Under the pieces are notes generated by a model. The model did no database searches. It was not told where the DNA came from and was given only the letters and a program-made list of their open reading frames with translations. From positions 31,268-95,267 of the forward strand of contig JAMNXQ010000003.1 of NCBI GenBank assembly GCA_023653075.1: 64,000 nt of DNA, read 5' to 3'. A program made the translations under genes and the position numbers. The DNA is from Algoriphagus sp. GTDB lineage: Bacteria > Bacteroidota > Bacteroidia > Cytophagales > Cyclobacteriaceae. This document shows positions 1,291 to 63,460 of this stretch, piece after piece (positions within the stretch are counted from its first letter, which is position 1; the number at the start of each line of letters is the position of its first letter).

Positions 1291-2181
1291 ATGGCTAATC
1301 CGGCAAAAGCAAAAAAACAACTAGGTTATTTTAAGTTTGGTAGCGTCCTATTCAGTACGACCTTATCACTTTTTATCGTGGGGCTTTTTGGGATTATTTT
1401 GATTCAAGCGAGCTCACTTACCAAAATGATTCGGGAGAATATTGAGATTCAGGTTTTTTTAGATAAGGAGTTAAGCCAACAGCAACTTGCAGATTTACGG
1501 AAGGATTTGGCAGAAAGACCTTTTGTGCTACGTACAGAAGATAGCCTTTACTTACGGTTCATTTCAAATAAAGAAGCTGCTGAAACCTTTATCAAAAACA
1601 CAGGAGAAGATTTTACCGAATTTTTAGAAGACAATCCACTCAGAGACAGCTACGTGTTTTCGGTTGCTGAGGCGTATCAAAGTTCCGAACAGCTTACCGT
1701 GATCGCAAAAGAGTTGGAAACTCAACCTGGCGTATTTGAAGTGTCTTATATGGCTGACTTGGTGGATTCAATAAATAAAAATCTTATTAAAGTGTCCTTA
1801 ATCATGGGTGGCTTTATTCTCATCCTCATTGTGACTGTCATCATGCTAATCAATAACACGATTCGATTGGCTCTATTTTCTCAACGATTTTTGATTCGAT
1901 CTATGCAACTGGTAGGTGCCACTCGTGGATTTATACGAAAGCCATTTCTGGTAAGAGCCTTTATTTTTGGAGTTTTAGCAGGGGTTTTAGCCTCTTCGAT
2001 TCTATTTGGCCTTTTGGAATACACCAAAGGAAATATCGAAGGGTTCGGGTCCTTACAAAATACGGAACGGATGCTCCTCCTATTTGCTGGATTATCGATA
2101 ATGGGTGGACTCCTTTCCGGTTTTAGTACCTTACGTGCCGTCAACAAATACTTAAATATGTCCTTGGACGAACTTTATTAA
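1291..2181 (+). CDS. ftsX: Cell division protein FtsX (ABC transporter permease)
   Basis: Four-TM FtsX architecture; IEIQVFLDKELSQQQL extracellular domain; MQLVGATRGFIRKPFLVRA. Confidence 0.88.
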   Translation: MANPAKAKKQLGYFKFGSVLFSTTLSLFIVGLFGIILIQASSLTKMIRENIEIQVFLDKELSQQQLADLRKDLAERPFVLRTEDSLYLRFISNKEAAETFIKNTGEDFTEFLEDNPLRDSYVFSVAEAYQSSEQLTVIAKELETQPGVFEVSYMADLVDSINKNLIKVSLIMGGFILILIVTVIMLINNTIRLALFSQRFLIRSMQLVGATRGFIRKPFLVRAFIFGVLAGVLASSILFGLLEYTKGNIEGFGSLQNTERMLLLFAGLSIMGGLLSGFSTLRAVNKYLNMSLDELY

Positions 2182-2184
2182 TCC

Positions 2185-2394
2185 ATGAGCAATACCTCTT
2201 TTCCCTTTTCCAAAAAAAATTACCTCTTCCTTTTCTTAGGTTTGGGGCTAATTGTGCTAGGTTTTGTCATCATGGGTATGGATACTACACCACATGGCAA
2301 TGGATTTATGGGTTTGACACTTGGTCCTATAATTACCCTAGCTGGTTTTGTACTTGAGTTCTACGCCATTTTTGCCAAGGCTTCCAAATCCTGA
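2185..2394 (+). CDS. DUF3098 domain-containing small membrane protein
   Basis: 69 aa, two TM segments, NYLFLFLGLGLIVLGFVIMG; sits between ftsX and truB. Confidence 0.75.
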   Translation: MSNTSFPFSKKNYLFLFLGLGLIVLGFVIMGMDTTPHGNGFMGLTLGPIITLAGFVLEFYAIFAKASKS

Positions 2395-2428
2395 TTTTTA
2401 CGTTCTCAGCTTAGGCTACCCCATTCCC

Positions 2429-3124
2429 ATGCAGCAAGAAGCTTACGGAGAAGTTTTTTTAATCAACAAACCTTTGGAATGGACTTCCTTTGATGTGGTT
2501 AAAAAAGTCAGAAATGCCTTACGCATTAAGAAAGTGGGACATGCAGGTACTCTTGACCCCTTAGCTACAGGATTATTGATTGTTTGCGCTGGCAAAATGA
2601 CCAAGCAAATAGACGGGTTCATGGGGCAAGAAAAGGAATATACCGGAACATTTGTCTTAGGTGCTACCACAGAATCCTTTGACCTTGAAAAGCCCATCAT
2701 TCCAGTAGCAGATCCCTCTTTCATTACTTTGGAACAGGTTCAAGCAGCTGTTTTACAACTTACTGGTACGATTTTTCAGATCCCACCCATGCATTCCGCA
2801 ATTAAGGTGGATGGCAAACGGGTTTATGCTTCTGCTCGTTTGGGAATTGAAGTTCAAATGAACCCCAGACAAGTGGAAGTTCGGGAATTTGAAATTTGTA
2901 GATTTGAAAATGGGGAAATCGATTTTCGGATAAGCTGTTCCAAAGGAACTTATATCCGAAGTTTGGCGCGTGATCTAGGAGCGAGTCTAGCTGTAGGTGC
3001 GTATTTGAAATCCTTGTGTCGAACACGAATAGGGACCTATTCCTTAAAAAATGCAAAGGAGATTTCCGATTTGGTAGAAGAAATAAAATCTAGGCCCAAT
3101 GAAAATCTATCACCAACTCTCTGA
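2429..3124 (+). CDS. truB: tRNA pseudouridine(55) synthase TruB
   Basis: INKPLEWTSFDVVKKVR, GHAGTLDPLATGLL, KEYTGTFVLGATTESFD. Track ORF begins 2348, but ATG at 2429 (MQQEAYGEVFLINKP) fits the family start. Confidence 0.92.
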   Translation: MQQEAYGEVFLINKPLEWTSFDVVKKVRNALRIKKVGHAGTLDPLATGLLIVCAGKMTKQIDGFMGQEKEYTGTFVLGATTESFDLEKPIIPVADPSFITLEQVQAAVLQLTGTIFQIPPMHSAIKVDGKRVYASARLGIEVQMNPRQVEVREFEICRFENGEIDFRISCSKGTYIRSLARDLGASLAVGAYLKSLCRTRIGTYSLKNAKEISDLVEEIKSRPNENLSPTL

Positions 3125-4782: not shown

Positions 4783-5442
4783 ATGTTAACTAAAGAACAA
4801 ATAGCTAGACGAATTGCCAAAGAAGTGGAGCATGGGCAATACATCAATTTAGGCATAGGTATCCCAACCTTAGTAGCCAACTACATTCCAGCTCATTTGG
4901 ATGTGGTCTTGCAATCAGAAAATGGACTTTTGGGCATCGGCCCTTTCCCAAAGGAAGCAGATGTCGATCCCGATTTAATCAATGCAGGAAAGCAAACCAT
5001 CACCATGTTACCTGGGTCAGCGATTTTTGATTCTGCCCAATCCTTTGCCATGATTCGTGGGGGTCATGTGCATTTAACGATCTTAGGGGCAATGGAAGTC
5101 TCTGAACATGGAGATATTGCGAACTGGAAGGTTCCTGGCAAAATGGTTAAAGGTATGGGTGGCGCAATGGATTTAGTTGCTTCAGCCAAACACATTGTTG
5201 TTGCCATGCAGCATTGCTCGAAAGATGGACAATCCAAGTTATTGCCTACCTGTTCCCTACCTCTTACGGGTATTCGTTGTGTTAAAAAAATTGTTACGGA
5301 TTTAGCCGTATTGGAAATTGATCCTGCAGGTGGATTTGTGCTATTGGAACGTGCTCCTGGCGTATCAGTTGACGAAATTAATGCTAAAACCGCAGGTAAA
5401 TTAATCGTGAATGGTGAAATTCCGGAAATGACCTTTGCTTAA
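4783..5442 (+). CDS. 3-oxoacid CoA-transferase subunit B
   Basis: YINLGIGIPTLVANYIP, LQSENGLLGIGP, MIRGGHVHLTILGAMEVSEHGDIANWKVPGKMVKGMGGAMDL. Confidence 0.93.
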   Translation: MLTKEQIARRIAKEVEHGQYINLGIGIPTLVANYIPAHLDVVLQSENGLLGIGPFPKEADVDPDLINAGKQTITMLPGSAIFDSAQSFAMIRGGHVHLTILGAMEVSEHGDIANWKVPGKMVKGMGGAMDLVASAKHIVVAMQHCSKDGQSKLLPTCSLPLTGIRCVKKIVTDLAVLEIDPAGGFVLLERAPGVSVDEINAKTAGKLIVNGEIPEMTFA

Positions 5443-5483
5443 TTCCTAAGTTACTTAATAGAAAAACTAGTTTACTCAATCGT

Positions 5484-5828
5484 ATGAAAAAATCAGAAAT
5501 CAACTTTCAAATTGAATTGGATGAGACCAACTTACCCAAAACTATTCATTGGGATGCTTCGGACAAGGAAGGTGAAGGAGCTGAATCTACTAAAAGTATC
5601 AGTTTGAACGTTTGGGATAACCTCAACCACTCCACGCTTCGAATAGATTTGTGGACCGATGAGATGTCGGTCGTAGAAATGAAGCGGTTTTACATCGATA
5701 TCCTAGGTGGAATGGCTCAAACCATTATAAATAGTACGGGTGATGAGTATATGTCAGAAGAAATCAAAGACTTGTGTGACCGATTGGTTAAGCACGTAAA
5801 CGAGGAAAATAAGAAAGCCAAAATTTAG
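5484..5828 (+). CDS. gldC: Gliding motility protein GldC
   Basis: KKSEINFQIELDETNLPKTIHWDASD...SISLNVWDNLNHSTLRIDLWTDEMSVVEMKRF matches GldC pattern. Confidence 0.88.
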   Translation: MKKSEINFQIELDETNLPKTIHWDASDKEGEGAESTKSISLNVWDNLNHSTLRIDLWTDEMSVVEMKRFYIDILGGMAQTIINSTGDEYMSEEIKDLCDRLVKHVNEENKKAKI

Positions 5829-6132
5829 CGAAATCAGAAGTAAAGGAAGCTGTTTCAGCAACTTGCAGCCCCATTTCTAGTGATTTACAAATTTGACAAT
5901 TAGCAATAAAAATAGACTTCATTCAACTTATTTTCAAAATATTCGCTCTAAAATTTCAATATTAAAATTTTAATTCGATTTCTTGAAAATTAATTAAAAT
6001 TAAAGTGTTGGGAGTGCTGTTTTTTTTTACTAGAAAACAATAGAAAATTACCTTTTTCCTATAAATTTCGAATAATTGGATTGGATTCACCTTAATTCAA
6101 AAACCTTCTTAACTATTTTACAAAATTAGCCT

Positions 6133-9100
6133 ATGAAAAATTTTACCAAAAAAATCTGGAGTTCAGTGCTCTCAGCGGTGGTACTCCTAGCCTTAGGAAC
6201 CTCCGTTGCACTAGCTCAGACTACCATTTCCGGTACTGTCACTGATGCGGATACCAAGGAAACATTGGTAGGGGTAAACATCCTCGTGAAAGGAAAAGTA
6301 ATTGGGACCATTACTGACCTCTCCGGAAAGTTTACTTTAAACGTAAACCAAGAACCTCCATTTACTTTGGTGTTCTCAATGGTTGGTTTCGGAACAAAAG
6401 AAGTCGAAATCACCGGTGGAATCTCCAACCTTTCAGTGGAACTAGCTGAAGCTTCTATTTTAGGACAAGAAGTCGTGGTATCGGCATCAAGAGTGGAAGA
6501 GAGCATCCTAAGATCTCCAGTTTCTGTAGAAAAGATGGATATCATCGCGATTAGAGATGTACCTCAGGCAAGTTTCTACGATGCGCTTAACAACATGAAA
6601 GGGGTAGAAATGAGTACCCAGTCTTTGACTTTTAAGTCTTTCAACACCAGAGGCTTCAACGCCAACGGTAACGTGAGAACGGTACAAATGATTGATGGAA
6701 TGGACAACCAGGCACCTGGTCTCAACTTCTCTGTAGGTAACATTGTAGGTATCTCAGAATTGGATTTAGAAAGCGTAGAATTGCTTCCGGGTGCAGCTTC
6801 TGCACTTTATGGACCAAATGCAATCAATGGCATCCTTTTGATGAACTCCAAAAATCCGTTTCAATACCAGGGTCTTTCTGCTAATGTAAGAACTGGCTTG
6901 ATGGATCAAAAAGATAGAACAACTCCAGGAACTGGATTCTATGATTTTAGTGCTAGATATGCAAAAGCAATTAACGATAAGTTGGCATTCAAAGTCAATG
7001 TCCAGTATTTGAAAGCAGATGATTGGCAAGCAAATGATTTTCGTGATCAGTCCTTGTTGAACGCTTCTCGTATCAACAAGGGAGATCGAATCTCCAACCC
7101 AGCTTACAATGGAGTTAACGTTTACGGGGATGAAACCAACGTGAACATGAATTCTATTGCTCAGAGCATGGTAACTGCCGGTGCTTTACCAGCTGCCTTG
7201 CTTCCACTCATCCCACAGACTTTTGTGTCCAGAACTGGGTATAGAGAATCTGATTTGGCGGATTATGGCACCAAGTCTTTGAAATTGAATGCAGCCTTGC
7301 ATTACAGAATTAATGACCGTGTGGAAGCAATCATTCAAGGTAATTACGGATTCGGAACTACGGTATATACCGGAGCTGACCGTTATTCCATTGCTAACTT
7401 TAAGTTAGGCCAGTACAAAGCTGAATTGAAAGGTGCAAACTGGTTCTTGAGAGGCTATACCACTCAGGAGCGTTCAGGTGATGCATTTGCAGTAGGTATT
7501 GCCGCACAAGGTATCAACGAAGCTTGGAAGCCAAGCAGCACTTGGTTCCCGCAGTATGTAGGCGCTTTTGCACAGGCAAGAGCTAGGGGCCTAGACAATG
7601 CCATGGCGCACGATGCTGCAAGAGCATTTGCTGATCAAGGTCGTTTGCTCCCTGGAACTGCTGGATTTGATGCAGCTAAAGCCGCTGTAACTGGTCGTCC
7701 TATTCCAGGTAATGCTCAAGGTGTAGGTGCTAAATTTGTGGATAAAACCAACTTGTACCACGTAGAAGGTTCTTACCAGTTTACAAACATCAAATGGGCT
7801 GATTTCGTTGTAGGTGCTAACATTAGAACTTACCAACTAAACTCGGACAAAACTCTTTTCGCAACAGACGAAAACGGTGATGAATTCACCATCAAAGAGC
7901 ATGGCGCTTACCTACAAGGCGCTAAGTCCTTGTTCAATGATAAGTTTAGATTGACTGCTTCTGCGCGTTACGATAAGAACGAAAACTTCAAAGGACAGTT
8001 GTCCCCTAGAGTATCCGGTGTGTATTCTGCAGGAACTCACAACTTCAGAGCTTCTTACCAGACTGGTTTCCGTCTGCCAACGACACAAGATCAATACATT
8101 GACCTTGTGACTCCTCAGGCAAGATTGATTGGTGGTCTGCCACTTTTCAGAAGTAAGTACAACTTCTCTGGAAACCCAGTGTATTCGCTTGCCACAGTGA
8201 CCAGTTTCGGAGGAGCAGTTTTAGCGGGAACTCAACCTTCTTCACCCGTGTACCAAGCATCTATCGCCCAGGCTACCCAATTAGCGATAACACAAGCTAC
8301 AAATATAGTGACTCAACAGGTTTTGGCGGGCTTGATCCCTGCTGCGCAAGCACCTGCAGCCATCGCCGCCTTGGTGCCTAGCATCGTTCCTCAGATTGCT
8401 GCACAATTGGTACCTGCCAATGCTGCTGCTGCTGCCAAAGACAAGCTGGTGGCTTTCAAGCCTAGCGAATTCAAAGCTGAAACCGTGAGATCTTATGAAT
8501 TGGGCTACAAGGGTTTGTTTGCAAATAAATTGTTGATCGATGCTTATGCCTATTTCAATAGTTTTGAAAACTTCATCGGTGGCCAAGTATTGGTACAGGA
8601 TAAAAACTATGTGGCTACTAGCCCAGCTTCCACCTTGGGTCTTAACCTATTGAATGCAAACACCAGAAATATCTACTCCATGCCAGTGAATAGAACTGAG
8701 ACGATTAAATCATGGGGATGGGCTTTAGGCGCAGATTACCGTTTGCCTAAAAACTACACCATTGGTGGTAATGTGTCTTACAACACCCTTCAAAACCTTG
8801 AGGAGTTGACAGTAACTGGATTCCAGCCCTCTTTCAACACACCTGAGTACCGGTATGTAGTGAACTTCGCTAACCGTGAGCTTGTGAAGAACATTGGATT
8901 CGCTATGTCCTACAGATGGCAAGGTGAATTTGCTTGGCAGTCTTCTTTCGTAGCTCCTGCAGTGTCTTCACAGCAACTTTCTGTGATGCCAGCATTCGGG
9001 ACTTTCGATGCGCAAATGAGCGTAAAAATGAAGGCGCTTAAGTCTATCTTGAAAATCGGTGGATCTAACTTGTTCAATAGCTCCGGATACAGACAAGCAT

Positions 9101-57290: not shown

Positions 57291-57749
57291 ATGAAAATCA
57301 ACGGTAAGAGAACCCTGCCCGTTACTTTCTCATTCACCATTTTGTACCTACACCACTTACTACCATCTCTTTTTGTTTGGACTATCGCTAAAATGGATTT
57401 TTCCTCTCAGAAAGTAGCCTTTGACAGTAGAATCCTTTTAAGTGGCGCCTTAATGCTGGTTTTACTTCCCTTGGTCGCTCGTGTGTACGCACGCACACCT
57501 CAAAATCAAATTAGCTTCAACGAAATGCGAAGCTGCTACTTCCATTTAACTCGAAAAACTTTTGAACTGAAAGAGAAAAACTTGAAGCAAGGTCAACTTA
57601 TAGGGCTACGATTTGCTAGTGATGAAAATCTCTTAAGCTTGATAGACCCTACAATCGAAGAGAAATTAACGGCAAAAGATAGTAAACAGCAGCTTACTAA
57701 CTGGAGAGACGATTACCTTCGTGAGTACCTAGTCGAAGACTTTAATTGA
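57291..57749 (+). CDS. Hypothetical protein with N-terminal hydrophobic segments
   Basis: 152 aa ORF, ATG start after a terminator; no family recognised. Confidence 0.5.
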   Translation: MKINGKRTLPVTFSFTILYLHHLLPSLFVWTIAKMDFSSQKVAFDSRILLSGALMLVLLPLVARVYARTPQNQISFNEMRSCYFHLTRKTFELKEKNLKQGQLIGLRFASDENLLSLIDPTIEEKLTAKDSKQQLTNWRDDYLREYLVEDFN

Positions 57750-58838
57750 AATTACTTTCCTCAAAAGTCCTTGAAATTCTTCTCTCGCTCTTTTTTGGTA
57801 CTCAGGATCCGAAAAATCAAGCGGGGTCAATTCGAGAACCGCATCAAATCCAGAAGCGTATCCCTCTTGACCTGAAGCAATCAAGGCAATTTTTTTTCCG
57901 TGTTTGTGGGCGAGTTGCTTCAATTCAAAACAAGCCTTACCCTCCTCACTTTGAGAATCGTACTGTCCCTCACCCGTGAGGATCCAATCTGCTTTCTTAA
58001 CTTTCTCCTCGAGGTTCACCTGCTTAAAAAAGTATAGTGCGCCGTACTCCAAGGAGCAAGGGAAAAATTGTGCCAACCCGAATGCTATTCCTCCTGCCGC
58101 ACCAAAGCCAGGCTGATCCAAAACAGGACTGTGAGATTTCCGAAGGAGTAATTCCACCATAGCGGCAGTACTAACTTCTGTGGCTTCTATTTCTGCTTCT
58201 TTCAACCCTTTTTGAGGACCAAAAACAGGAACTGCACCTTTGGATCCAAAAAACGGGTTTCTTACGTCACATAAACAAGTAAAGGACACCTCAGGAAGCC
58301 GCAACGGCCGTTGGATATGTCGACAGCTTTTCAAAAACTCAGGAGAAAACGCTGGAATCTCTCTTCCATTTTGATCCAAAAACAAAAAGCCCAAGGCCTG
58401 CAATATACCAGTTCCCAGGTCAATGGTTGCAGATCCACCCAATCCTAAGATCAGGTGCTGAGCTCCTCCTTGAATCGCCTGTTGGATAAGGATTCCTGTT
58501 CCATAGGTAGAAGTTAGACTTGGCTCTCTTGCATAAGTTGACAAAACCCCCAATCCAGAGCAAGTAGATACATCCAAAAAAGCTGTTTTTGAAGATTTAT
58601 CCCAAGCATAGAACCCAACAAGGGATTGCCCAATCGCATTTAAGGAAAGACACTCAATCTTCTCCAATCCCAAGGATTCTGCCAGCAAGGCACAGGTTCC
58701 ATCTCCCCCATCCGCCAGGGCTTGGCTAGCGAATTGGGAAGATGGATACGCCTGAATTAAAACTTCTTCAATAAGAGAAACTGCTTCTAACGCGGTAAAC
58801 GTTCCTTTGTAGGCGTTGGGAGCAATTAAAAATCTCAT
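57729..58838 (-). CDS. Glycerate kinase (GlxK/GarK family)
   Basis: MRFLIAPNAYKGTFTALEAVSLIEEVL, ALADGGDGTCALLAESLG, ILGLGGSATIDLGTGILQALGF, DWILTGEGQYDSQSEEGKA. Confidence 0.93.
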   Translation of the reverse strand: MRFLIAPNAYKGTFTALEAVSLIEEVLIQAYPSSQFASQALADGGDGTCALLAESLGLEKIECLSLNAIGQSLVGFYAWDKSSKTAFLDVSTCSGLGVLSTYAREPSLTSTYGTGILIQQAIQGGAQHLILGLGGSATIDLGTGILQALGFLFLDQNGREIPAFSPEFLKSCRHIQRPLRLPEVSFTCLCDVRNPFFGSKGAVPVFGPQKGLKEAEIEATEVSTAAMVELLLRKSHSPVLDQPGFGAAGGIAFGLAQFFPCSLEYGALYFFKQVNLEEKVKKADWILTGEGQYDSQSEEGKACFELKQLAHKHGKKIALIASGQEGYASGFDAVLELTPLDFSDPEYQKRAREEFQGLLRKVISIKVFD

Positions 58839-61822
58839 GCCGTGTTTTGCTTCATTCGCCCAAAGTAATCCTTTGCAGCGGCTTTCACCTTAGGCGCTAG
58901 ATATAGCGCTGCAATCATGTTGGGAAATGCCATCACTGCATACATTCCATCAACCAAACTCACCACCAAATCTAAGGAAGCTACGGCTCCTATCACAATC
59001 GTAACCAAGTAAATATAGTTGTAGTATCCAGCAAACTTTGCCCCAAAGAGGTAACTAGCACATTTTTGACCGTAATAGGAATAGGTAAACATGGTGGAGA
59101 GTGCAAATACCAGTGCAGACACCATCAAAAGGTATTTGCCAATCACCGGTATCCCCAATTCAAAAGCTTCGAGCGTAAGTTTCACCCCATCATTTTCAGA
59201 GTTTTGCCAAACTCCCGTGAGCAAGATAGCAAACGCAGTAAGCGAGCAAACCACTACCGTATCGATGAAAGGACCCAACATGGCAATTAAACCTTCTCGG
59301 ATCGGTTCTTTGGTTTTGGATTGACCATGTACCATCGGAGCAGTACCAAGGCCTGCCTCATTGGAAAATAAGGATCTTCTTGCGCCAATAATGATCACAG
59401 AACCCACCGCCCCACCCATTGCAGCATTACCTGTGAAAGCGTCCACAAAGATGAGTTGAACCACTTCCGGGATGTTTCCAAAATACTGCAGAATGATGAT
59501 TGATACGGAAACAAAATAAATCCCAACCATGAAAGGAACCATTTTGGATGCGGCTGCTGCAATCCGTTGAATTCCCCCTAAAATCACCACCGCCGTCAGC
59601 AGCATCATGATGACTCCGATGATCCAATTATTACGAGTTGATTCTGCTGCAGTTTCTGGCTCCAGCAGCACAGCCTGAACCACAGCCGCCAACTGGTTGG
59701 AAGTAAACACAGACAACAGACCGACGATACCAGCAAAGCAAAAGATATAGGAAAGAAATTTCCATTTTTTCCCCATTCCCTGTTCGATGATGTACATAGG
59801 GCCTCCTTGGATGACCCCTGCCGTATCTTTTCCCCGGTACATGATGGACAGGCTACAGGTGTAGAACTTGGTAGCCATGCCTACAAAAGCAGCCACCCAC
59901 ATCCAAAAAAGTGCTCCCGGACCTCCCATATTGATGGCAATGGCTACGCCTGAAATATTTCCCAAACCAACCGTAGAAGCAATGGCTGACATCAAAGCCT
60001 GTTTGGATGTGATTTCACCTGGAGCTAATTTATCCTCGTATTTTCCTTTCAAAAGTTCGAATGCATGACCTATTTTGGTGAGCGGAACGAAGCCAGAATG
60101 GATAAAAAAAAAGGTGCCTCCTCCCAAAAGTAAAATCAAAATGGGTGGACCCCAGATCCAATTGCTAAAGGCAATAATGCTTTCTTCGAATGCACTCTTT
60201 TTCTTGGTTTCCCAAGTTACTTTAGGGGATTTGTAAAAATTTATTCCCTGAATAGTCCAACGTTCCCCTTGAATCGGAATCCGAGAAGAAAATCCCTTCC
60301 AACTCCTTTTTTCTTTTTTAGTCCAAGCCACCTCTGCGAAAGCTGCCAATCGTGGAAAGGCTAGGTAATTGATATCTTCTAAGTTAGTCACAGTCTCAGA
60401 CCATAGCGGTGCCTCAACACCTAAAATATCGGCATTGGCAAGCCCCTTCACATAGGTAGCAGGATCCCAGAGGTAAGCCGAATCCAATTCAATGTAGGCA
60501 GCCCAGTGCAATCCGATTCGAGAAAGGCTATCGTATTGCATATCCAAATAGGTCTTTTTTGCAGGAGAAAGTAACACCTTATTTCCTTGATTTTTGGCTA
60601 GGATTGCGTTCTCTTCTTTGGCCCAAAATTGAGCAACATTGCCTGGAAGCAATTTTGCAGAGGCCACTTCATCCCATCCTATACTAGTTTTGCCATATTT
60701 GGAGACGATATCTTGCACTCGCTCCACGAAGTAGGCATAGTCGTCCTTTTCGGTGACATGCGATTCATCTCCACCAATGTGAAAATAAGGGCCTGGTGAA
60801 AGTTCGGAAATCTCACGAACCACACTATCCACAAAAGCGTAAGTCACCTCCAATTGCGGTGCAAAAGTACTCCAGCCCACTTCGATTCCCGTGTACATTT
60901 GAGAAGCTTGAGGGGTTGTCAATGGCATTTGGTAATCCAAAGGACTCTTGTTTAGCGAATCTAATCCCTGACCTACAGGTAAGTTGACTCCAGGATTTAA
61001 TTCAGCATAAGACGCCAAGGCAGAATTGGTATGGCCAGGCATATCTATCTCCGGAACGATGGTGATGTATCGCTCCGCTGCATAGGCGACCAATTCCTTG
61101 AAATCATCTTGTGTGTAAAATCCTCCTTTTCCCCCTCCAACTTCAGTAGCACCTCCGATTTCAGTTAATTTAGGCCAGGACTTGATCTCAATTCGCCATC
61201 CTTGATCATCGGTGAGGTGGAGATGGAGGTAATTCAACTTCATGCTGGCCATTTGGTCGATGTAAAACCTGACATCTTCTTTGGAAATAAAATGTCTAGC
61301 GACATCTAGCATGGAGCCTCTGTAAGCAAATTCAGGGGCATCAATGACCTTACCTTGAGGAAGGATCCAATCCCTATTCTGAATGGTAGTTTGTTTGATA
61401 TCAGGCGGGAAAAGTTGAAGGAGCGTTTGCACCCCATAAAAAAGACCCGCTTCTCCAGAAGAAGTAATTCGGATTCCCTCATCAGAAATTTCAAGTTCAT
61501 ACGCTTCAGAAGGCCCGGATCCAGTCAATTCCAAAGCAATTTCACCTGAATCCTTAGAAATAGGTACCGTAAACCCTGTAGCAGGCCTAAGGCTATTGGC
61601 TAAAATTTCACCGATGGAAGTTAATTTTTCAGAGGTGCCAACCAAGTGGATACCTGTCTGAGCTGTTACTTCAAAAGTTCCGCTTCCATCCGTTACCTCT
61701 TGCGGTAATGGAATAAGTCCTGCTTCCGAAAGGGGCGCAGGTTTTTGACAAGATCCTAATACTAGGAGTATTCCAATTAGGAGCATCCAATTTAAATTTT
61801 TCATAGGGATGATTTTAATCAA
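58835..61822 (-). CDS. Fusion protein: N-terminal lipoprotein-type GH20 beta-N-acetylhexosaminidase + C-terminal AGCS sodium:alanine/glycine symporter
   Basis: Lipobox LVLGSCQKP; GH20: FAYRGSMLDVARHFISKEDVRFYIDQMASMKLNYLHLHLTDDQGWRIEI, FHIGGDESHV, SIGWDEV; AGCS: SNWIWGPPILILLLGGGTFFFIHSGF, GEITSKQALMSAIASTVGLGNISGVAIAINMGGPGALFWMW, QGGPMYIIEQGMGKKW, SLFSNEAGLGTAPMVHG. Start could be 61804 (MKNLNWM). Confidence 0.93.
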   Translation of the reverse strand: MIKIIPMKNLNWMLLIGILLVLGSCQKPAPLSEAGLIPLPQEVTDGSGTFEVTAQTGIHLVGTSEKLTSIGEILANSLRPATGFTVPISKDSGEIALELTGSGPSEAYELEISDEGIRITSSGEAGLFYGVQTLLQLFPPDIKQTTIQNRDWILPQGKVIDAPEFAYRGSMLDVARHFISKEDVRFYIDQMASMKLNYLHLHLTDDQGWRIEIKSWPKLTEIGGATEVGGGKGGFYTQDDFKELVAYAAERYITIVPEIDMPGHTNSALASYAELNPGVNLPVGQGLDSLNKSPLDYQMPLTTPQASQMYTGIEVGWSTFAPQLEVTYAFVDSVVREISELSPGPYFHIGGDESHVTEKDDYAYFVERVQDIVSKYGKTSIGWDEVASAKLLPGNVAQFWAKEENAILAKNQGNKVLLSPAKKTYLDMQYDSLSRIGLHWAAYIELDSAYLWDPATYVKGLANADILGVEAPLWSETVTNLEDINYLAFPRLAAFAEVAWTKKEKRSWKGFSSRIPIQGERWTIQGINFYKSPKVTWETKKKSAFEESIIAFSNWIWGPPILILLLGGGTFFFIHSGFVPLTKIGHAFELLKGKYEDKLAPGEITSKQALMSAIASTVGLGNISGVAIAINMGGPGALFWMWVAAFVGMATKFYTCSLSIMYRGKDTAGVIQGGPMYIIEQGMGKKWKFLSYIFCFAGIVGLLSVFTSNQLAAVVQAVLLEPETAAESTRNNWIIGVIMMLLTAVVILGGIQRIAAAASKMVPFMVGIYFVSVSIIILQYFGNIPEVVQLIFVDAFTGNAAMGGAVGSVIIIGARRSLFSNEAGLGTAPMVHGQSKTKEPIREGLIAMLGPFIDTVVVCSLTAFAILLTGVWQNSENDGVKLTLEAFELGIPVIGKYLLMVSALVFALSTMFTYSYYGQKCASYLFGAKFAGYYNYIYLVTIVIGAVASLDLVVSLVDGMYAVMAFPNMIAALYLAPKVKAAAKDYFGRMKQNTA

Positions 61823-61999: not shown

Positions 62000-63460
62000 A
62001 TGAAAAATAAAAAACAAAACCAGGGAGAAAACTCCAGAAGGGACTTTATAAAAAGTTCAGCACTCGCTTTTGCAGGAATTACACTCATCCCAAGGCATGT
62101 ACTGGGTGGGCCTGGCTTTATCGCTCCTAGTGACAAACTAAGAGTAGCATCCATTGGCATCGGAGGAATGGGCTATGGTGATCTTTCTGGAGTGCATAAA
62201 AGCGGCAAAGTTGATATCATCGCCCTATGTGATGTAGATGACACTCGCGCAGCCCAAGGAAGAAAAGATCATGCCAAGGCAAACTACTACAAGGATTACC
62301 GGATCATGCTCGAAAAAGAGGAGAAAAATATCGATGCAGTGACCGTTTCCACCCCCGATCACATGCACGCCGTACAAGCCATGATGGCCATGAAAATGGG
62401 CAAGCATGTGTATGTACAAAAACCTCTCTCCCACGACATCTATGAAGCTCGGATGCTTACGCGGGCAGCAGAAAAGTATAAGGTAGTCACCCAAATGGGC
62501 AATCAGGGTTCATCCGGTGATGGAGTACGCAAAATGGTGGAATGGTATGAAGCAGGCTTAATTGGTGAAGCCACCAAGGTATGGTCTTGGACCAATCGTC
62601 CCGTATGGCCTCAGGGGATTCCTTGGCCAAGTACGCCAGTGACTCCTCCAGCAGATCTAGATTGGGACCTTTGGTTGGGAACGGCTCCTTACAAGGATTA
62701 TGTGGGCAATCTAGTACCCTTCAACTGGAGAGGCTGGTGGGATTATGGAACAGGAGCATTGGGAGATATGGCTTGTCATATCATGGAGCCACCTTTCCGA
62801 GTTTTGGGCTTAGGATATCCCAAGTCTGCTGAATGCTCTGTAGGATCTGTGTATGTAGGTGAATTTAAGCGAGGTCATTTTCCTGAAAGCTGCCCTCCAT
62901 CTTCACACATTACTTTACGATTTGATCGTCCTGGAAAGGATGATTTGGAATTCCATTGGATGGATGGCGGCATACAGCCTACCCGACCAGAGGAGTTGGG
63001 TCCAAATGAAATGATGGGTGACGGTGGCAATGGTGTGATCATCGAAGGAACAAAAGGCAAAATGATGTGCTCCACCTATGGCGCGAATCCTCAGCTATTG
63101 CCTACATCCAAAACCAAGGATATTACAGTAAAGGAGTCACTGTATCGAGTACCAGGAGGTGATCGAGGCCACTATGACAACTGGGTGAATGCTTGTATTG
63201 CAGGCTTCGGTTCCACTGAATTTAAGCAACTCAGCTCCCCTTTCTCAATCGCTGGTCCGCTAACAGAATCTGTACTGATGGGTAATTTAGCTATTCGTAG
63301 CTACGACTACCAGGTTCCTCGTGCAGGTGCTGCAAATCAAATGGATTACCCTGGCCGAGGCATCAAACTGCTTTGGGATGGTCCAAATATGAAAATCACC
63401 AATTTCGAACCAGCAAATCAGTTTATAACTCGAAATTATAGACCTGGATATACCTTGTAA
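62000..63460 (+). CDS. Gfo/Idh/MocA family oxidoreductase with Tat-type signal
   Basis: SRRDFIKSSALAFAGITLIP signal; RVASIGIGGMGYGDL, DVDDTRAAQGRKDH, VSTPDHMHAVQAMMAMKMGKHVYVQKPLSHDIYEARMLT. Confidence 0.93.
   Translation: MKNKKQNQGENSRRDFIKSSALAFAGITLIPRHVLGGPGFIAPSDKLRVASIGIGGMGYGDLSGVHKSGKVDIIALCDVDDTRAAQGRKDHAKANYYKDYRIMLEKEEKNIDAVTVSTPDHMHAVQAMMAMKMGKHVYVQKPLSHDIYEARMLTRAAEKYKVVTQMGNQGSSGDGVRKMVEWYEAGLIGEATKVWSWTNRPVWPQGIPWPSTPVTPPADLDWDLWLGTAPYKDYVGNLVPFNWRGWWDYGTGALGDMACHIMEPPFRVLGLGYPKSAECSVGSVYVGEFKRGHFPESCPPSSHITLRFDRPGKDDLEFHWMDGGIQPTRPEELGPNEMMGDGGNGVIIEGTKGKMMCSTYGANPQLLPTSKTKDITVKESLYRVPGGDRGHYDNWVNACIAGFGSTEFKQLSSPFSIAGPLTESVLMGNLAIRSYDYQVPRAGAANQMDYPGRGIKLLWDGPNMKITNFEPANQFITRNYRPGYTL

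Follow-up and report, generated by a model that had tools for sequence, protein, structure and literature searches.

The window, by which we mean the whole stretch of 64,000 nucleotides that was analysed, contains on its minus strand a frame of 995 codons (58835-61822) which is open throughout, and the question raised by this locus is whether a GH20 lipoprotein and an AgcS symporter are made here as one protein and, if so, what brought them together. The preliminary description had read the frame as a single gene joining both; this was confirmed, with the start moved. At 61822 the frame opens with a TTG that lies further upstream, while the ATG at 61804 is the start conserved among relatives and gives a protein of 989 residues with the N-terminus MKNLNWMLL, so that the fused gene, composed of a GH20 lipoprotein, a linker and an AgcS symporter, spans 58835..61804 (minus strand, as are all its parts; 989 codons and a TGA stop). 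The Pfam domains GH20b, GH20 and Na_Ala_symp (the latter at residues 594-987) were all found in the one chain. The stop codon overlaps the start of a glycerate kinase gene (57729..58838, minus strand; ATGA), and on the other side a divergent Gfo/Idh/MocA oxidoreductase gene (62000..63460, plus strand), whose product resembles the BT_2158 family but scores below that model's cut-off, served as a synteny marker common to the relatives.

The protein begins with a putative signal peptide (residues 1-19, 61748..61804) with the lipobox LGSC, in which C19 would be the lipidation site. It is followed by a GH20b N-terminal domain (residues 29-155, 61340..61720; PF02838, E 1.5e-20, 75 bits against a cut-off of 26.1) and by the GH20 catalytic barrel (residues 159-496, 60317..61330; PF00728, E 4.6e-88, 296 bits against a cut-off of 22.3). 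The hexosaminidase of Streptomyces plicatus/coelicolor (SpHex; 1hp4, 4c7d), which is 48% identical to the GH20 half across the aligned part, has the same two-domain fold and the same C-terminal end (...FYRSPQVPW), but is not attached to a membrane protein; the fusion adds an N-terminal lipoprotein signal and an 11-helix symporter. Alignment to 1hp4 placed the catalytic pair at D346-E347 (60764..60769), the equivalent of D313-E314 in SpHex, and both the lipobox and the Asp-Glu pair are as first described. All 11 of the SpHex active-site positions that were compared are identical in the GH20 half and are also invariant in 13 fused proteins. The half stops at W531, the same point as the whole solved hexosaminidase, and its predicted model superposes on 4c7d with a TM score of 0.95. 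From its family, the GH20 half is probably an exo-beta-N-acetylhexosaminidase acting in the periplasm; the carriers examined also keep another GH20, about 850 residues long.

Every fused protein with a complete N-terminus has LGSC or LSSC at the lipobox, and S18, C19, Q20 and K21 are invariant in 13 of them. The conservation of S18-C19 suggests that cleavage and lipidation are still in use, though the helices alone would be enough to hold the protein in the membrane. Surface-exposed lipoproteins of Bacteroidota carry an acidic export signal, such as C-X-K-(D/E)2-X (PMC5080379); the fused proteins have no acidic residue at positions +2 to +6 relative to the cysteine (CQKPAP, CQKSTT and similar), which makes it most likely that the ancestral GH20 enzyme was turned towards the periplasm.

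The AgcS half (residues 542-989, 58838..60181; 11 predicted membrane helices) agrees with the full-length AGCS transporter of the preliminary description, since TIGR00835 was matched end to end (positions 1-424 of 424, residues 551-980; 402.9 bits against a cut-off of 272.65). Residues 627-642 (59879..59926), GGPGALFWMWVAAFVG, gave a computed match to the pattern of the AGCS family signature. Methanococcus maripaludis AgcS (6cse/6csf; AGCS family, TC 2.A.25) is matched over its whole length, the alignment running from residue 10 to residue 448 of the 453 of 6cse, with a TM score of 0.94 between 6cse and the predicted model. The GH20 half ending like the solved hexosaminidase and the AgcS half spanning 6cse, both proteins are complete; the difference is that 6cse begins at the transporter, while in the fusion about 540 residues of periplasmic enzyme take the place of a few N-terminal residues. 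Substrates vary among AGCS members, GutA for instance transporting glutamine (PMC12795558), and going by its family the AgcS half is probably a Na+-coupled importer of a small neutral amino acid. It was the sole AgcS found in the carriers examined and therefore presumably works.

The charge of the loops between the 11 hydrophobic helices (25 K/R in the inner and 6 in the outer loops of the predicted N-out arrangement) predicts an N-out, C-in topology for the AgcS half, which would put the GH20 domain on the correct, periplasmic side and is compatible with the arrangement supposed earlier. Three lysines among the residues ahead of the first helix argue against this topology. An AlphaFold model of the fusion gave both domains at high confidence (mean pLDDT 85, pTM 0.58), matching 4c7d and 6cse, with a flexible joint (pLDDT below 50 at residues 534-536), and the model does not fix the placement of the domains relative to each other.

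The distribution of the fusion was addressed by searching 76 genomes of Algoriphagus (GTDB). The fused frame was present in 17, all of 2.2-2.8 Mb, and every genome of this size class in which the gene was found has the fused version; the junction is open in each of the 17 (15 read directly, two by search). The remaining genomes with a match are of at least 3.3 Mb and gave separate matches for GH20 and AgcS, and in all 33 of the separate-gene loci that were read base by base a stop and a start are present between the two genes. Separate genes in all close relatives, which the preliminary description had named as a finding that would speak against the fusion, are thus not what was seen: the genes are separate in larger genomes and fused in the small ones. 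In one genome of 2.9 Mb (G056, 74% complete) the search found neither the GH20 nor the agcS of the pair. The fused sequences form a single clade (support 1.0 for the concatenated halves, 0.999 for GH20 alone and 0.986 for AgcS alone), which gives one fusion event in the small-genome clade, and a single in-frame loss of the intergenic segment is the simplest account. Independent fusions in unfused species had been considered on account of frames of about 1030 aa that the genome search gave for several relatives; this figure arose because joined matches were spanned, and a stop was found in each locus read. The named carriers are metagenome-assembled genomes (MAGs), many of them from freshwater, to judge in part from the record names. 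Three fusion-carrying public MAGs (L065, L066 and L072) are labelled Spirosoma fluviale but lie within Algoriphagus (GTDB) and are probably mislabelled. In genome G027 a short contig (C150, 999-3797) carries a further, incomplete fusion copy, which probably stems from another strain or species binned with the first.

Where GH20 and agcS are adjacent but separate, in Algoriphagus as in other Cyclobacteriaceae, they have the same order, strand and flanking genes as the fusion locus. In the 33 loci read, the GH20 gene ends in ...SPKVNW and a stop, followed by a gap of 89-202 bp, and agcS opens with MGDIIIAFSNWIWG; the fused counterpart reads ...SPKVTW-ETKKKSAFEE-SIIAFSNWIWG, the comparison of loci defining ETKKKSAFEE as the linker (residues 532-541, 60182..60211). 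Of the 33 intergenic regions, 30 contain a hairpin that resembles a terminator and has a T tract, against 11% of shuffled controls, and a motif of the type CTATTATCG upstream of agcS is common to most of the closest relatives, terminator and promoter calls alike being consensus-based. In a series of separate-gene relatives (L025-L052) the promoter-like motif before agcS reads TTTTTG..TTTTG..about 15 nt..CTATTATCGA. Where these Cyclobacteriaceae make two proteins, with a terminator and a promoter-like motif between the genes and therefore no shared transcription unit, the fusion would give one chain: at the fused junction the GH20 stop, the hairpin, the promoter-like motif and the agcS start are all gone. 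The codon at the former agcS start is now TTC, TTT, TTA, ATC or CTT, being TTC in the window, and TTG in two of 15 fused loci (L012, L013). The earlier statement that the junction lacks an in-frame ATG, GTG or TTG holds only in part, as two in-frame TTG codons are present (L556 and L560); both lie within the first membrane helix, and a start at either would therefore destroy it.

Taken together, these observations make it probable, in our judgement, that a single ancestral in-frame join produced one protein in which both activities are kept, the enzyme having been relocated and the two functions co-expressed, and that this was a by-product of genome reduction. As the comparison of loci shows, one change in an ancestor of the small-genome freshwater clade removed the GH20 stop, the intergenic segment and the agcS start, so that the two coding sequences now form a continuous frame with about ten linker residues between them. 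Translation would begin at the GH20 start; the lipoprotein signal would take the GH20 domain through Sec into the periplasm, C19 would probably undergo cleavage and lipidation, and a stop-transfer role is predicted for the first AgcS helix, by which the symporter would enter the inner membrane in the usual N-out, C-in orientation. Judging from the two families, the ancestral activities of both halves are probably kept. The main consequences would be that the enzyme, which in the relatives is probably a periplasm-facing lipoprotein of the outer membrane, is now held at the inner membrane, and that the GH20 transcript has come to include agcS, followed by glycerate kinase. Direct transfer of product from enzyme to transporter would not be expected; the fusion would have been tolerated and then fixed during genome reduction, of which it is probably a by-product with both functions kept.

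Whether the open frame really yields one working chain is best judged from its pattern of change. Purifying selection acts strongly on both halves, with dN/dS of 0.076 (GH20) and 0.048 (AgcS) in the fused genes, compared with 0.154 and 0.077 in the separate genes, whose pairs are more diverged; codon change at the junction itself is mostly synonymous (pN/pS 0.30). These values together indicate that reading through the junction is maintained as protein, and we infer translation into one stable chain, the likely product being a protein of the inner membrane that combines the two activities and is translated from a single mRNA. That two proteins arise from the fused frame instead, through translation starting internally close to the former agcS start or through proteolytic cutting of the linker, we hold to be rather unlikely: the TTG at the old start in two loci and a charged, poorly ordered linker that could be cut would allow it, and cleavage in the linker after synthesis is also the point that weighs against the single chain we prefer, but the other species have no conserved start codon at the old agcS position, the next in-frame TTG codons lie within the first helix, and the frame has been maintained with mostly synonymous change at the junction although a stop would be cheap. 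The reduced genomes of the clade and the loss of related genes could also point to a decaying fusion with one half non-functional, which the low dN/dS and the invariance of catalytic residues and signature make very improbable. An artefact of assembly or sequencing was rejected and is given almost no weight; the carriers are all MAGs and some contigs end inside the gene (L018, L019), but the same junction recurs in 17 genomes from several unrelated projects, at 79-93% protein identity, which form a single clade with normal codon-level change, and an open frame in all 17 is far beyond chance or sequencing error.

The other alternative concerns why the fusion was kept. The preliminary description had suggested that cleavage of GlcNAc-containing substrates or muropeptides is coupled to uptake of alanine or glycine, and in this form a hexosaminidase tethered at the mouth of the symporter would capture amino acids released from muropeptides or glycopeptides, and the fusion would have been selected. 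The adjacency of GH20 and agcS in at least nine other Cyclobacteriaceae genera (with L166-L170 among the loci), the retention of the fusion across the whole clade under strong purifying selection and the short linker are in its favour, but what a GH20 exo-enzyme releases is an amino sugar rather than an amino acid, the genes of relatives are divided by a terminator and a promoter-like motif, and some genera have them far apart (about 37 kb in g97). Moreover, no NagA homologue was found in six of six carriers (G000, G002, G006, G058, G734 and G735; MAGs 67-91% complete), while four of four separate-gene relatives have one (E about 1e-66), and a nagB-like gene lies about 2 kb from it; it seems that the reduced clade has lost the GlcNAc-6-P route via NagA, with the reservation that the carriers are incomplete MAGs. 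GlcNAc catabolism as a common theme is weakened by the missing NagA homologue, and the nagB-type matches, being weaker, do not decide the matter. The conserved partner 3' of agcS throughout the genus is glycerate kinase, which agcS overlaps or closely precedes in all separate-gene loci inspected, so that a link to serine, glycine and glycerate metabolism is as plausible as one to GlcNAc, hinting at the true metabolic partner of AgcS. With differing substrates, a missing NagA homologue and a terminator between the ancestral genes, the proposed coupling is unsupported and we regard it as unlikely; similarly small is the chance of a wider version, in which the tethered hexosaminidase feeds or regulates uptake as a selected unit and AgcS symporters habitually gain N-terminal periplasmic enzyme domains. 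In another order, a Marinilabiliaceae bacterium (A049; L078) has GH20 (5001-6536, plus strand) and AgcS (1680-3005, minus strand) in divergent orientation about 2 kb apart.

Taken singly, the two halves of the fusion are typical representatives of their families, and it is the architecture made from two known families that is new. Among the matches listed from 398 genomes of the phylum there was no other frame combining GH20 and AgcS, the largest AgcS frame being of 704 aa, and a search of open-access papers turned up no description of a GH20-AgcS protein, nor of AgcS topology in words. The locus represents a clean and dated natural experiment in which a symporter with the LeuT fold was joined once, by intergenic loss, to an exported lipoprotein enzyme, and the join was kept clade-wide. 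It bears on the outside N-terminus of AgcS, on the ability of a lipoprotein signal to start a polytopic membrane protein, and on whether gene fusions in reduced genomes bring a benefit or are neutral; it is also a caution that inferring a functional link from a fusion may mislead where genomes are streamlined.

Two of the longest AgcS frames listed resemble GH20-AgcS in having a signal peptide and an exported domain ahead of AgcS, with N-terminal domains unrelated to GH20, and the N-outside end of AgcS therefore seems to have accepted exported domains more than once. The 704-aa frame (L163, 652-2763, plus strand; genome G233) is composed of a signal peptide, an acetolactate-decarboxylase-like domain (PF03306, E 1.6e-13) and a full AgcS; of five genomes of its Cyclobacteriaceae genus only this one has it, the siblings having AgcS alone and no such gene in the flank, and since it comes from one MAG only it may be an artefact. 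The other, from a relative of the same taxonomic class (L162, 370-2427, minus strand; genome G696), has a signal peptide, an SprB-like repeat scoring below the cut-off, a Biotin_lipoyl-like domain and AgcS in one frame.
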